Below, one piece after another: positions 4,903-11,693 of a stretch of 27,476 bases of DNA (its first letter is position 1; the number at the start of each line of letters is the position of its first letter). The translations under genes and the position numbers were made by a program. Below the pieces are notes generated by a model, which was given only the letters and a program-made list of their open reading frames with translations, had not been told where the DNA came from and made no database searches. The DNA is from a virus: IMG/VR virus record IMGVR_UViG_3300047667_000641, positions 1 to 27,476 of that record. One strand, given 5' to 3'.

Positions 4903-5154
4903 CTACACTACAATTCTGAGCTCACCTGTCGCCGTTTTGTAAACATCCCCGTCAACAAGATCGCCAGTGATCGCAGCCGCGTTGTCGGCAAAGATCGGAA
5001 GGTCTGTGAGCTTGAGTGTGGTGGCCTGCACAGGGCCGACGTTTTGAGTCTGCTGCGCAAAGACTGCAAAAGACTGCACCAGCTGCGACATGTGACGCTG
5101 ACTGTACTCCGCCGGCGGGGATGGGAAGTACGGTATTGCTGTGGCACGGCTCAT
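4903..5154 (-). CDS. Small conserved tail-associated protein
   Basis: This 83-residue protein overlaps the end of the tail-hub gene by ATGA (5151-5154), so it is probably translated by coupling and made with the hub protein. It has a proline-rich start (PYFPSPPAEYSQRHMSQLV), a short helix (LVQSFAVFAQQTQN), then strands ending in GDVYKTATGELRIVV. I remember the pattern PAEY...LV.SF....QQ..N.GP, then L.LT.LP, from small proteins following hub genes in marine phages. No enzymatic motif is present. A role as a minor tail or tail-tip component is inferred from position. The next gene starts 51 nt downstream. Confidence 0.7.
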   Translation of the reverse strand: MSRATAIPYFPSPPAEYSQRHMSQLVQSFAVFAQQTQNVGPVQATTLKLTDLPIFADNAAAITGDLVDGDVYKTATGELRIVV

Positions 5155-7019
5155 CCTCGGCGACCATCGGGTCTAAAGTCGAGACGTGGGGCTCCCAGCC
5201 GCCATGCGGTGCAATCGCATGTAGAACTCACTCGTAGGCGTATCGATCTCCCCCGCAAGCGCAAGTAAACCTGCTCGGTGAACTGCTCAACGGGGACCGC
5301 GACTGTCTGCACAACATCCTGCGCATTGGAGCCGACATATGCCCCGCCCGAAAAGTTTTGCATCGACAATGTCATCGTAGCACTTGGGGCAGTAGCACCC
5401 TCTGAGCCAGTGAACGTTAGGTCGGGGATCATGCGCGTAACGAACATGAAGTTGTCACCGTCCCCGATATCGACTGGGCTGGACTCAATAAATGACCCCA
5501 GCGCCTGCGCGGGTTCAAAATCTCCGTCGGTGATACCTGTTTCGTGAAAGTAGAGATAGTTATCTTTGGAAGCGGCAATGGGTGATGAAAACACTGAGCG
5601 TGCGAGCCATGAGGTTCGGCTCAAGTCTCCGTAATACCAAAGATCCTGCAGGTAATTGTACACAACATATTTGTCATTGTCCTGAGATCCACTTGACGGG
5701 TAGAACCAATAAACCTCACCAAAAGAACCCTCATGTCCCGCGAAAACCTTGGCGTACTGGTTTTCGTTAATATCTCCAAAGACGTAATCTCTGACACTGC
5801 ACGGTATCTGCTGCACGAGCCCGTTGAACCTGTAAAACGAACCAACCCCCATCCACATAACCTCGTCACCGACCCCCACTGCTGCCTTGGGGCTCGCGAT
5901 CGAAGTGCCGAAAGCCACTTCGTTAATACCGAACGTGAAAGGCGGGCCGCTAAACTGCATAGCGTGCACGGACTCGTCCGTGATTACCAATGTCAAAAGT
6001 CTTGTGTGCACAGCCGCAATTATTTCATTGCCTGACCCTACGCGCAGGCTCCCTGCAGTGTTGTTGGGGCGAGACTCCCAGTCCGTAATACTTTCTGTGG
6101 CAGAAAACCGAATGAGCAAAGGGTCAAGCACCCCCGGTATAAACTCATCGTCTGTTCCGAAAACTATAACGTGACGGTCACGTTCAGACAAAAGAAGAAT
6201 GTTCGCAATTGTAGGTGAAGTGTTGGCGCCAGCAAGCGAGGTTATGTTTACACCACGGGAGGCAAACCCGCTCGTGCGGTCCCAATAGTAAACGCCACCG
6301 CCTCGTGGGGCAAATATAAGGTCTTCTCCAAAGTTTGTGTGGGTCCAAACGCGCAACTGGGCTCCGGCGATGGCGGTTGACGAGGCTTCACCCCAACCGC
6401 CCGCTCCCCAAGCCCCAGCTCCCCACCCTGTGCCGATCACAGAAGTGTCGAGACCCGTATTGACCTGATAGGCCCCCACCGTAGCGGCGCCGCCGTCAGA
6501 AGTGTCACTGGCGTTGGCTGCGACGGGCAACGCGATCTCATAGTTGTCGGAGTCTACAATGGCCGTTATTTGATATTCCGAGTTCAGCACCAGCGCGGTC
6601 ACAGCCCCACCAAGAGAAACGGCGTCCGTGAACGTGACAAAATCGTTTAACAGTGCCCCGTGGGTGACGTCTGTGACTGTTACGGTGGAACTTCCGTCAA
6701 CCGCCGCGAACGTGGCGTCCCCCGCGGCGGTTGTTGATCGGATTGGGGTTATGTCGCTATAGCCGCCACCTCGCCCAAGGTAGTATTTCAAGTGGGTCCC
6801 GACTCCCAAAAGCTGGGTTCCGTCCAAAACCCGCCAGCCAATAAGCGCGCGGCACGTGCCTAGAAACTGCAGTGATGAGATTTTTTTCCAGCCACCAATG
6901 GTCTCCGGCAAACCGTCGCGGAACCGCACCCGATTACCATCAAACCAGCCGCCCTCGTTTGCATACGCGGTGGTCTCACGGTTAACACCCGGCCTAAACT
7001 GGAGCTTCGTCAATGGCAT
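5151..7019 (-). CDS. Tail hub / packaged-DNA stabilisation protein, P22 gp10-like
   Basis: The 622-residue product has a good Shine-Dalgarno sequence (AAGAGGT) before ATG 7019. It begins with LQFRPGVNRETTAYANEGGWFDGNRVRFRDG, in which PGVNRETT and GGWFDGNRVRFR are hallmark segments of a tail hub family I know from podovirus-like and marine phages. Residues about 95-200 form a beta-rich, Gly/Ala/Thr-rich insertion. The rest repeats short beta blades with aromatic turns (VYYWDRTSGF, MWMGVGSFYRFNG, VYWFYPSSGS), as expected for a beta-propeller hub. By analogy with P22 gp10 it would plug the connector and carry fibres or the tail needle. The match to gp10 is by architecture and context, since sequence in this family diverges strongly. 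C-terminal RLGAPRLDFRPDGRRG is basic. Confidence 0.7.
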   Translation of the reverse strand: MPLTKLQFRPGVNRETTAYANEGGWFDGNRVRFRDGLPETIGGWKKISSLQFLGTCRALIGWRVLDGTQLLGVGTHLKYYLGRGGGYSDITPIRSTTAAGDATFAAVDGSSTVTVTDVTHGALLNDFVTFTDAVSLGGAVTALVLNSEYQITAIVDSDNYEIALPVAANASDTSDGGAATVGAYQVNTGLDTSVIGTGWGAGAWGAGGWGEASSTAIAGAQLRVWTHTNFGEDLIFAPRGGGVYYWDRTSGFASRGVNITSLAGANTSPTIANILLLSERDRHVIVFGTDDEFIPGVLDPLLIRFSATESITDWESRPNNTAGSLRVGSGNEIIAAVHTRLLTLVITDESVHAMQFSGPPFTFGINEVAFGTSIASPKAAVGVGDEVMWMGVGSFYRFNGLVQQIPCSVRDYVFGDINENQYAKVFAGHEGSFGEVYWFYPSSGSQDNDKYVVYNYLQDLWYYGDLSRTSWLARSVFSSPIAASKDNYLYFHETGITDGDFEPAQALGSFIESSPVDIGDGDNFMFVTRMIPDLTFTGSEGATAPSATMTLSMQNFSGGAYVGSNAQDVVQTVAVPVEQFTEQVYLRLRGRSIRLRVSSTCDCTAWRLGAPRLDFRPDGRRG

Positions 7020-7973: not shown

Positions 7974-9728
7974 TTACTCCGCTTTTATGAGGACGTTCGC
8001 GTTCGCGATTGAAACTTTTGGAACTGCAAACTCGGTGTCAATGTCATAGTTCTTCCCTTTGTATGTCGAAAAGAAAGGCGTTCCATTGTACCCCACGGTA
8101 AGATAGGTGCCAGTGCCGCTCCACGCCAAGGCGCTCGCAGTGCTTGTCGGCAGCGTTGTAAAGTCCAAAATCTTTGTGAACACGTCGCCCGAACGCTTAT
8201 AAACAGTGACGAAAGGTGAGTTGACGTGCGCAAGCCCCATATACGTGCTGTCTGCACTCCACGCTGCTGCGTTGCTTTCACCCGTGGGTAGCACTGCGGG
8301 GTCGCGTTGTTTTGTGAACACGTCGCCCGCACGCTTATAGATAGAGACGAAAGGCGAGATGTCGTGGGCGACAGTCAGGTGTACGCCGTCAGGGGAAAAC
8401 GCGACCCCTTTGCCCTCGCCCGTGGGTAGGGTTGCAGCGTTGGAAAGTTTTGTGAACACGTCGCCCGCACGCTTATAAATAGTGACGAAAGGCGAGGTTA
8501 TGTGCGCAACAGACATGTATACGCCGTCGGGGCTCCACGCGATGCCATTCCCGCTGCCTGTAGGTAGGGTTGCAGGGTTGGCAAGTTTTGTGAACACGTC
8601 GCCCGCACGCTTATAAATAGTGACGAAAGGCGAGGTTATGTGCGCAACAGACATGTATACGCCGTCGGGACTCCAAGCTACACCAAACCCCCTCTCTGTA
8701 GGTAGGGTTGCAGGGTTGGCAAGTTTTGTGAACACGTCGCCCGAACGCTTATAAATAGTGACGAAAGGTGAATCAAAGTGCACAACAGTTAGGTATACGC
8801 CGTCGGGACTCCACGCGATGCCATTGGCTGAGTCAGCAGGCAGGGTTGCAGGGTTGGAAAGTTTTGTGAACACGTCGCCCGAACGCTTATAGATATAGAC
8901 GAAAGGCGTCACGAAGTCCACAACAGTTAGGTATACGCTGTCGGGGCTCCAAGCGGCGCCTTTGACCGCGTTGCCGGTCAGAGCCGCAGGGTTGGGAAGT
9001 TTAGGGGCCTCGTCCCAATCTGGAAGTAAGCCAACCACCGTAAAAAGATCAGGGTAAGCCGATTGCAAATACACAGCCCCGTCTGTTCGCAATGATCCTG
9101 TGGGGATTGCGTCATTTGCCGTTACGGCGATGTCCCCAATAGCGTCAAGTAGGCCCGCTGCAATGAGCGCCTGCTTTGTGCGCAGCGGCGACATTAAACT
9201 ACTAGCATCCGTGCCGGCCTCGGCCGCGGCCTGAGTGGCCAGCGTCTGCTTTACACGAAGAGATGTTAAAAAATTGACGTTATCGGTCCCTGCTATAGCC
9301 TCGGCTTCGCTTGCAGCTTCCGACAAAGCCGTCACTGCGGCAGTTACACCGGCCCCGTCGCAGTAGACAATGGCTTTGGCGCCATCCGCAACGGTGACGC
9401 TTGCTCCAGATCCTTGGGTTAGCACGATGCTTTGGCCAGAGTCGTTGACCACAAAATACTGTTTTTCTTGGTCGTTTGGGCTGATAGTTACGGTGTTCGT
9501 TCCGCTGGGAGACCCGCCGAACACTAGCACTTTATTCTGCCCCTCGGACAGCGCTCCGTCGCTGGTTGCCAAAGTGTGAGTCGTGCCAGACAAGGTGACA
9601 GCACCGACCCCGTTGAGAACTCGATCAATGATATCAAAGTTTAAGTTTGCGGTTTGACCCCACAATCCAGCTTGCTCGGCATCGCCGGGCTTTTCGATGC
9701 CGCTATTTGCAGTGTAGGTACTTGCCAT
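7974..9728 (-). CDS. Tail fibre with seven-repeat beta-propeller inside a collar domain
   Basis: The 584-residue protein starts at ATG 9728 behind AAGG. Residues 1-135 are an anchoring module I know from marine phage fibres (MASTYTANSGIEKPGDAEQAGLWGQ is its start). Residues about 145-190 hold two helical linker repeats of the AGTD...SLRVKQTLA type. Residues about 193-235 match the first half of the phage tail-collar fold (IGDIAVTA, then IPTGSLRTDGAVYL and YPDLFTVVG). Seven repeats follow from residue 243: six of exactly 46 residues and a divergent seventh. Each has an AWSPDGVYL core and an SPFVTIYKR strand. The last 25 residues return to collar-like sequence (YDIDTEFAVPKV, then NVLIKA). I infer a seven-bladed propeller receptor-binding domain nested in a split collar domain. 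The receptor is unknown. Confidence 0.8.
   Translation of the reverse strand: MASTYTANSGIEKPGDAEQAGLWGQTANLNFDIIDRVLNGVGAVTLSGTTHTLATSDGALSEGQNKVLVFGGSPSGTNTVTISPNDQEKQYFVVNDSGQSIVLTQGSGASVTVADGAKAIVYCDGAGVTAAVTALSEAASEAEAIAGTDNVNFLTSLRVKQTLATQAAAEAGTDASSLMSPLRTKQALIAAGLLDAIGDIAVTANDAIPTGSLRTDGAVYLQSAYPDLFTVVGLLPDWDEAPKLPNPAALTGNAVKGAAWSPDSVYLTVVDFVTPFVYIYKRSGDVFTKLSNPATLPADSANGIAWSPDGVYLTVVHFDSPFVTIYKRSGDVFTKLANPATLPTERGFGVAWSPDGVYMSVAHITSPFVTIYKRAGDVFTKLANPATLPTGSGNGIAWSPDGVYMSVAHITSPFVTIYKRAGDVFTKLSNAATLPTGEGKGVAFSPDGVHLTVAHDISPFVSIYKRAGDVFTKQRDPAVLPTGESNAAAWSADSTYMGLAHVNSPFVTVYKRSGDVFTKILDFTTLPTSTASALAWSGTGTYLTVGYNGTPFFSTYKGKNYDIDTEFAVPKVSIANANVLIKAE
8037..9002 (-). repeat. Seven tandem 138-bp propeller repeats inside the fibre gene
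   Basis: Six units of exactly 138 bp (46 codons) run from 9002 to 8175, and a degenerate seventh continues to about 8037. Unit boundaries in coding order are 9002, 8864, 8726, 8588, 8450, 8312 and 8174. Units three (8589-8726) and four (8451-8588) are identical for about 80 bp at their distal ends and again for about 30 bp at the other end. They differ only in the middle, which encodes the loop before AWSPDG. This indicates recent duplication or gene conversion. These are protein-coding repeats and are not a CRISPR array. Confidence 0.9.
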
Positions 9729-9782: not shown

Positions 9783-10907
9783 TTACGGTGCAATAGGGGT
9801 CCAAACGTTGTCGTCATCCGGCGCGACCTCCGCCCAAGTGTTACCTGCCGCGGAGGTTATTGGGCTCCACGTCGTGTCGGAAGGTGGGGGCAGATTTCCC
9901 CAAACCAACACGCCGCGGCCACTAATGGCCGCATCCGCTGACACACCCGTTAGATAAACCACCTGCGCTGCGGTGAAATCTATGCTCCCCCCGGTGCTAG
10001 TGAAGGCGACACCGGTTAGTTCAAGGGGGATGACCGCTCCGAGGAGAACAGACCCGTTCGTTGATGCAAACGACACGCCGGTGATCGGCGACGTGAATGC
10101 AGTGCCCAATGAGCCCGCAGTGCTTGTAAGAGCATCGCCGGTGAGCGGGGTTGTGATGTGCGAGACCACGGAACCAGCGGCGCTTGTAAGAGCATCGCCG
10201 GTGATCGGGGTTGTCAGAGCGAGGCCGAGCGTGCCGGCGATGCTGGTGTAGGTCGCGCCGGTGAGCTCGATGGCACTGTCGGTGGTAAACAGAACAGACC
10301 CGACCGTTGACGTGAACGATGCACCAGACACAGGTGACGCGAATGCGGTTTCAAGCGATCCACCAGCACTCGTCAGCGAGTCGCCACTGAGAGGGGTTGC
10401 CAGAACGAGCCCAAGCGTGCCGTTTGCACTGGTATAATCGACGCCAGTGAGCTCAAGGTTGCTGTCGGCGGTGAACAGAACCGAGCCGGCCGCCGATGTG
10501 TACGACACGCCGGTCAACGGGGTTGTCAGATCAAGGCCAAGCGTGCCGTTTGTGCTGGTGTACGCCGCGCCGGTAATCTCAAGGGTGCTGGCGGTGCTAA
10601 ATGACACCTCGCCGCCCGTTGACGTAAATGCCTCAACCGATAGTGGCGACGTGAAACTTGTGCTGATATCCCCTGCGGACGATGTGAATGACACGCCTGC
10701 CAGCGGTGACGTGAATGCAGGATCAAGCGAACCGGCTGCGCTTGTTAGAGCATCGCCGGTCAGCCCGATTGCGAATGCCGCAACAATCGCGCCAACCGTT
10801 GACGTGAATGACGCAGTTGTTAGCGTGTCTGTGTACGTTGGCCCGCTCGGCGCGACATCAGTTGACGCGGCAAGAGCATTGGACGCTAGAGGTGAAAAAC
10901 CTAACAT
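9783..10907 (-). CDS. Repeat-built beta-structured tail protein
   Basis: The 374-residue protein has a 23-residue N-terminus (MLGFSPLASNALA...) and then about fourteen degenerate repeats of roughly 20 residues up to residue 325. The consensus is L-T-G-x-x-x-T-S-x-x-G-x-x-x-x-x-x-x-x-P, with an alternation between units starting L/I-E-L/I-T-G and units starting L/I-T-G or L-S-G. The composition is almost only Thr, Ser, Gly, Ala, Leu and Val. The last 45 residues change to a Trp/Pro module with WSPI, WAEV and WTPI at regular spacing. Such proteins are known in marine phage tail regions, but I know of no experimental function. A fibrous or beta-solenoid tail component is likely. The start codon has only a weak ribosome site. 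Repeat number probably varies between relatives. Confidence 0.75.
   Translation of the reverse strand: MLGFSPLASNALAASTDVAPSGPTYTDTLTTASFTSTVGAIVAAFAIGLTGDALTSAAGSLDPAFTSPLAGVSFTSSAGDISTSFTSPLSVEAFTSTGGEVSFSTASTLEITGAAYTSTNGTLGLDLTTPLTGVSYTSAAGSVLFTADSNLELTGVDYTSANGTLGLVLATPLSGDSLTSAGGSLETAFASPVSGASFTSTVGSVLFTTDSAIELTGATYTSIAGTLGLALTTPITGDALTSAAGSVVSHITTPLTGDALTSTAGSLGTAFTSPITGVSFASTNGSVLLGAVIPLELTGVAFTSTGGSIDFTAAQVVYLTGVSADAAISGRGVLVWGNLPPPSDTTWSPITSAAGNTWAEVAPDDDNVWTPIAP
9975..10840 (-). repeat. About fourteen degenerate 60-bp coding repeats
   Basis: The stretch encodes the roughly 20-residue TS..G repeats of the tail protein above. At DNA level the best-conserved piece is agagcatcgccggt, seen near 10129, 10189 and 10746. 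Other units are diverged. The repeats stay in frame throughout, so selection acts on the protein. Unequal recombination between units could change fibre length. Confidence 0.8.
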
Positions 10908-10937: not shown

Positions 10938-11693
10938 CTAAACAAACGCAGAACCGTTCCAACGCTTTAAGGGCTTTGCCTCAAAAGCTGAACCGGTCCA
11001 ACGCTTTACAGGCTTTTGTACAAATGCTGATCCGGTCCAAACACCAATGGTGCCACCACTTACCGCAGCCTCAGCCTTTATCACCAACGTGAAGGTGGTG
11101 GCTTCTTTGTCTGATGCTATTGTGTACGCAGAAGGGTCTTCAGGGCTGGACGTTACGTTCTTTTGAGAAATAGCATGCCCTGCGTTACCAGAGTTATTAC
11201 TATACACAACTTGAGTGTATCCGGTGGGCTGAGTAGTGATATTTTCAGCGCCACGAATGACGAACCCCGCGAGTGCGAGTGTGTCGCCGGACCATCCCCA
11301 TGCACGCGAAGGTGGGTTCGGGTTTGCGGTTTTACTGCCGTTTGTTGTGGCATGGGCGGCGATGGGCGCAACCGATGTGTCCCACCCACTAACTTCAACG
11401 ACGTGTGCTGTGGTTTCTTTGTCGGAGTCAAAATCGAAAGGTTCACTGGTCCCCTCTGTACCATCTACCTCACGATACCAAATGAGGGAGCTTGCGCGGT
11501 TGCCGCTGGCGTTGTCTATGCCACCAATAAACACCAACTTGCTGCCGGTGTAGGTAACAGGCGCGGCGTCATCGACCCATCCCAGAAAGAAAACCACCAG
11601 ATTACCCGACGTCATGCCCGTCGGATAATTGACGTTGACCGTGTTGGCCTTAGCGGTTGTTGTGTCGTGTTGGACGACGACTGGGAATGCCAT
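10938..11693 (-). CDS. Beta-sandwich tail protein with three C-terminal W-GSAF repeats
   Basis: The 251-residue product starts MAFPVVVQHDTTTAKANTVN with an AAGG site upstream. Residues 1-210 look like a single beta-sandwich domain with alternating hydrophobic strands (TSGNLVVFFLGWVDD, SSLIWYREV, DTLALAGFVIRG). Residues 218-251 are three tandem units of W-T/N-G-S-A-F followed by KPV/LKR, the last unit cut short at the stop. Similar W-GSAF ends occur on other phage tail proteins. The protein lies between two fibre-like genes, so it is probably a surface-exposed tail or fibre component, possibly carbohydrate-binding. That role is inferred from fold pattern and position only. Confidence 0.7.
   Translation of the reverse strand: MAFPVVVQHDTTTAKANTVNVNYPTGMTSGNLVVFFLGWVDDAAPVTYTGSKLVFIGGIDNASGNRASSLIWYREVDGTEGTSEPFDFDSDKETTAHVVEVSGWDTSVAPIAAHATTNGSKTANPNPPSRAWGWSGDTLALAGFVIRGAENITTQPTGYTQVVYSNNSGNAGHAISQKNVTSSPEDPSAYTIASDKEATTFTLVIKAEAAVSGGTIGVWTGSAFVQKPVKRWTGSAFEAKPLKRWNGSAFV

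Follow-up and report, generated by a model that had tools for sequence, protein, structure and literature searches.

We analysed a window of 27,476 nucleotides of viral DNA, that is, the whole stretch from position 1 to 27,476 of the IMG/VR record IMGVR_UViG_3300047667_000641. The window is a minus-strand phage structural block with genes for terminase, portal, major head protein and further head proteins, and the same block continues with a fibre-like gene cluster, a virion structural protein (phrog_3287; 5151-7019), which we take to be nozzle-like, and an ejection protein. The gene studied here sits between the head genes and this nozzle/ejection-type pair. Its open frame lies on the minus strand, and the plus-strand reading of 7974-9728 is full of stops. 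We also observed a DNA-identical copy of the gene in another IMG/VR contig of 58.5 kb, so that an assembly accident of the window is unlikely. The gene product is probably a tail-fibre or adhesin subunit of an HTVC023P-type podovirus, and its parts are as follows.

7974..9728, minus strand: whole gene of a putative tail-fibre protein of 584 aa (open frame, and the identical gene in the second contig)
9351..9728, minus strand: residues 1-126, N-terminal domain common to HTVC023P-type podovirus tail proteins (tblastn)
9144..9350, minus strand: residues 127-195, predicted helical linker (low-confidence helices in the single-sequence model)
9030..9143, minus strand: residues 196-233, tail-collar N-terminal half (Pfam PF07484 and a nine-collar profile)
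8997..9011, minus strand: residues 240-244, lone D-type strand, or velcro (resembles the D strand of each blade, ..KLxNP)
8049..9002, minus strand: residues 243-560, seven 46-residue WD40-like propeller blades (periodicity, AF2 and Foldseek)
7977..8048, minus strand: residues 561-584, collar C-terminal half, with the TEFAVP strand and the terminal VLIKA strand (tail-profile score)

Repeats were also seen in three other minus-strand genes of the window. The neighbouring gene (9783-10907) encodes a 374-aa protein built of repeats (LTGVSFTSxxGSV..) that matched no family, a 251-aa protein of the fibre cluster ends in 13-residue repeats (WTGSAFVxKPVKR; 10938-11040), and an 18-bp tandem repeat (FGGAQE; 2894-2949) lies within the predicted ejection protein.

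The nearest relatives of the portal belong to Pelagibacter phages HTVC023P and HTVC027P, Planktothrix phage Pag-Yong1, phage DSL-LC04 and Roseobacter phages CRP-901/902. In tblastn, residues ~1-126 of the fibre protein were 30-36% identical to tail proteins of HTVC027P, Pag-Yong1, DSL-LC04 and CRP-902, whereas the downstream parts of those tail proteins differ from ours; the end of the Pag-Yong1 protein, for instance, reads as an S74-type chaperone. A shared N-terminus followed by differing C-terminal modules is what is usually seen when a constant domain for attachment is combined with an exchangeable tip, and residues 1-126 are probably the virion attachment domain. Because the gene lies in a structural block and its N-terminal domain is common to annotated tail proteins having other C-termini, we predict that the protein is a probable part of the virion.

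Next to the linker and the first collar half lies the blade array. AWS/AFS motifs occur seven times, at residues 259, 305, 351, 397, 443, 489 and 535, and every interval is 46 residues. Self-identity at lag 46 was 63%, and only lags 46 and 92 exceeded 20% among lags 20-99, so the periodicity is not due to chance. Tandem Repeats Finder independently reported a 138-bp array of 6 copies with 79% matches. Per 46 residues, 22-42 are identical among blades 1-6 and 14-18 for blade 7. Identity between blades at the DNA level is 43-93%, and blades 3 and 4 share a single long stretch of 81 identical bp. The earlier note had described six exact 46-residue repeats and a divergent seventh; it was right about the spacing, which is exactly 46, but not about the sequences, which are not exact copies.

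The single-sequence AF2 model already placed four strands in each blade, although it resolved only the propeller. With 10 sequences, AF2 again gave four strands per blade, with a pTM of 0.79 and a propeller pLDDT mostly of 75-96. Among solved structures, the best Foldseek matches were closed seven-bladed proteins, namely the designed propellers 7big/7bie (TM normalised by target 0.78-0.81) and the WD40 domain 5yzv (0.79-0.85). In aligned members of the family, a D-like strand precedes blade 1 and the last blade (7) lacks its D strand. As closure by an N-terminal D strand is described for WD40 proteins (PMC3419727), the lone strand at 240-244 should close the last blade. Among 96 complete, non-identical family ORFs, the array spans seven blade lengths in 70 and six in 13, and the predominance of seven argues against an open array. 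The model, the Foldseek matches and the blade counts in the family thus support a closed seven-bladed WD40-like ring, as had been proposed, and no solenoid. The blades are WD40-like by their profile scores and not strict WD40 repeats: PF00400 scored 19.8 bits against a cut-off of 27, and YKR occupies the position of the WD dipeptide, while PD40 (25.8 > 20.9) and the WDR19 propeller model (58.9 > 27) passed.

We then considered the segments on either side of the propeller. Pfam Collar (PF07484) matched residues 198-233 over profile positions 1-36 of 57 (E = 0.0018), and this match bears out a first collar half at residues ~193-235 as read in the earlier note, though the full-length score of 18.6 bits (21.6 bits in the genome scan) is under the 24-bit cut-off. 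The elements GDI...DG...YPxLF are present, and the N-half alone scored 42.9 bits against a profile of nine uninterrupted collars. The tail, YDIDTEFAVPKVSIANANVLIKAE at residues 561-584, contains the TxFxxP and terminal IK strand elements as TEFAVP...LIKA. Residues ~558-584 had been taken for the end of the collar, and this was also supported: a tail profile built solely from collar proteins having no WD40-like insert (CGphi29 gp38, L133, L135 and L158) gave residues 561-584 a score of 13.8 bits, which was reached by 0 of 1639 scored shuffles, and the tail co-occurs with the N-half. Canonical collars run on as GTTYGxGDGSTTFNLPDLRG, followed by a long segment and the terminal IIKT. In the fibre protein, the propeller occupies the position of the TTYGxGDGS loop, TEFAVP replaces TTFNLP, and only a few residues then lead to LIKA.

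When the flanks were joined in silico, they scored 27.2 bits to PF07484; in a separate test against the canonical-collar profile, the C-half joined to the N-half gave 44.3 bits, a value that 82 of 500 shuffled tails also reached, so that the real tail brought no gain. A PDB sequence search with the joined collar returned no meaningful match. As the joined score is no better than that of shuffles, the case for the C-half is a comparative one, made by its co-occurrence with the N-half and by a paralogue in CGphi29.

The same layout was found in L018/L166, L067/L165, L097/L168, L201, L219, L177/L203 and gp37 of Salicola phage CGphi29, and was partly visible in L094, L125, L136, L141 and L142. The insert is 331 aa long in the fibre protein (P0001), L166, L165 and L168, 330 in L201, and 329-338 in Salicola gp37 and L219. 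In all split records scanned, the PF07484 match ends at profile position 34-41, except in L219 where it extends weakly to 51; in the genome scan the 24-bit cut-off was passed by L219, L201, L137 and gp38. Among 101 complete family ORFs, the tail was present in 7 of the 9 propeller ORFs having the collar N-half and in 0 of the 92 lacking it ([[92,0],[2,7]], Fisher p = 2e-9, which is only a guide since the ORFs are related and kinship is uncorrected). The uninterrupted form is seen in CGphi29 gp38, directly downstream of gp37, where the same collar has a 12-residue loop and the tail follows right behind the N-half; both genes lie adjacent at L004:3473-5977, one having a seven-blade-length insert and the other the short loop. 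Moreover, in L133:11046-13118, L135:292-2199 and L158:5306-6526 the same collar halves flank TSPDGxxWTxRTSG repeats, which look like a BNR-like propeller. L158, found by a pattern scan, is the one MAG contig having a split collar with a different insert; a scan of genome contigs for bacterial carriers of relatives confirmed none. In another variant, two identical ORFs (L134:10806-12353 and L140:11345-12892) hold only two blades between the halves, so that exactly five are lacking; they are either an assembly collapse or a real short form.

The near-constant split point, the co-occurrence of the halves and the uninterrupted CGphi29 paralogue support, by comparison of sequences, the earlier proposal that the propeller is inserted between two collar halves; the predicted site is the loop that links the YPxLF helix to the TxFxxP strand, and both flanks would then belong to one collar domain. 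One could argue instead for a plain fusion, in which the propeller follows what is left of the collar N-half and the C-terminal tail has no relationship with the collar. The shuffle result on the canonical profile speaks for such a fusion, as do the flanks in the monomer MSA AF2 model, where their pLDDT is only ~30-40. However, a tail unrelated to the collar would not be expected to occur among family ORFs only alongside the N-half, to stand also behind a BNR-like insert, and to follow the N-half directly in the insert-free gp38. We therefore consider a simple fusion very unlikely.

The top face of a WD40 propeller is built from the bc and da loops and carries the contact hotspots R1-2, R1 and D-1, while the ab and cd loops make up the bottom face (PMC3419727). 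Of the 46 columns, those with the highest entropy were 30, 14, 12 and 31 in 28 blades from four split-collar members, and 30, 12, 14 and 31 in the 843 blades of the remaining family, a non-overlapping set. R1-2 and R1 correspond to columns 12 and 14, and D-1 to column 30 or 31, a placement uncertain by one residue. As the hotspot positions were looked up after the first entropy table, the 843-blade set serves as the replication. Entropy averaged over whole loops did not differ significantly between top and bottom (p = 0.17). Within the fibre gene, pN/pS was 0.74 in the variable columns and 0.56 elsewhere; both are below 1 and give no sign of positive selection. DGR targeting, as in a DGR-diversified adhesin, was rejected, since no reverse transcriptase (RVT_1) was found in nine records, the fibre-gene record and eight related ones, several of which are fragments. 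The chain enters the propeller at strand D and exits after strand C, both at the bottom, so both ends should leave from the face opposite the variable one, and this would place the collar below and the variable face outward. Such an outward-pointing face fits a predicted receptor-binding head, a reading that the face-specific variability supports.

Two other functions of the propeller were weighed against receptor binding. It could be a rigid part of the tail with a structural or spacer function, or a dock for another phage protein, having no contact with the host; the seven-bladed propeller of the SU10 nozzle protein is indeed structural (PMC9509320), and WD40 propellers often dock other proteins (PMC3419727). 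In this window, however, the nozzle-kind virion structural family is matched by a different gene, the phrog_3287 gene described above. A conserved phage partner is also less likely, as the terminase of the phage, used as query, matched none in the other split-collar records, some of which are fragments. Finally, the contact positions are the most variable columns, which goes against a structural or docking role, and we regard this role as unlikely. The variability of the ligand-facing positions argues in the same way against an enzyme that attacks polymers of the host surface, whether of lactonase, depolymerase or sialidase type. Propeller enzymes do exist in phage tailspikes, such as the K1F endosialidase, and the fibre protein has weak Pfam matches to Lactonase and SGL. 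Those scores are below the cut-offs in the fibre protein, though Lactonase passes in some relatives, and the blades are near-uniform; no acidic or metal-binding residue is obviously conserved in particular blades. An enzymatic propeller thus appears highly improbable.

We favour, as the probable explanation, a fibre having an attachment N-terminus and a collar-nested propeller whose variable top face binds the host, where trimerisation, orientation and binding are predicted features. Residues 1-126 would attach the fibre to the virion. The collar loop from the YPxLF helix to the TxFxxP strand would be replaced by a complete seven-bladed WD40-like propeller, closed as a ring by the N-terminal velcro strand, and the two ends of the propeller would leave from its bottom face at the collar. 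The top face would then point away from the fibre and could bind a host surface molecule, sugar or protein. A trimeric collar is probable, and each fibre would then carry three propellers.

The closest known counterpart is CGphi29 gp37 (SLPG_00037, AGH31831; probably UniProt M4QPW5, judged from the 562-aa length), in which a collar N-half is likewise followed by a seven-blade-length propeller and an FDPQTEF tail, and whose predicted structure appears to rank first among the viral hits (TM 0.76 over 390 columns). It differs in that the matched part is only ~31% identical, the terminase is unrelated, the protein is annotated only as hypothetical, and gp38, which has no propeller, stands behind it. 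The view that collar domains are usually continuous, from which the earlier note had started, needs qualifying, since the trimeric collar/flower motifs of T4 gp11 and gp12 already bear inserted parts (PMC3004832). In T4 gp12 the insertion lies between motif strands 2 and 3 and is no propeller (PMC3004832), whereas in the fibre protein the insert fills the loop that precedes the TxFxxP strand, and the segment behind that strand, an extended one in canonical collars, is cut to a few residues. Propellers are also present in known or putative phage receptor-binding proteins, namely Gp45 of S. aureus phage phi11, PRD1 P2 and phiKZ gp131C (PMC4901313). Gp45 is likewise closed by its own N-terminal strand; Gp45 and P2 are five-bladed, gp131C has a seven-bladed C-terminal domain, and none is described there as nested in a collar (PMC4901313). 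Thus, propeller adhesins and insertions in the T4 gp11/gp12 collar/flower motif are known already. What appears to be new is the nesting of a propeller in the helix-to-strand loop of the collar, of which we found no description in the open-access literature, subscription papers being mostly outside the search.

The collar loop could be a general socket, into which unrelated phages insert WD40-like or BNR-like propellers or which they leave empty; we put this forward tentatively, with the balance tilting slightly against it. If true, such a socket would allow receptor-binding heads to be swapped while the trimerising end of the fibre stays undisturbed. It is hard to recognise from sequence which parts of an uncultured phage bind the receptor. 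A collar split at a fixed point, together with contact positions readable from the repeats, provides a marker of the binding head and a few candidate residues. The two CGphi29 genes, of which one has the propeller and the other lacks it, are a natural comparison in a cultured phage and make the question testable.

The blades belong to the same family as phrog_19311 and the phage propellers having YKRSGDxFTKL blades (such as ctYwJ313 and POR1), most members of which lack the collar halves and have the propeller alone or with other C-terminal parts. Some long ORFs of the family, in L027, L105 (14 blade motifs) and L085 (11), hold two propeller-sized arrays or more than seven blades, and a very large protein of Xanthomonas phage XacN1 (L007:1268-8960), annotated as a phosphodiesterase, contains a propeller of the same family.
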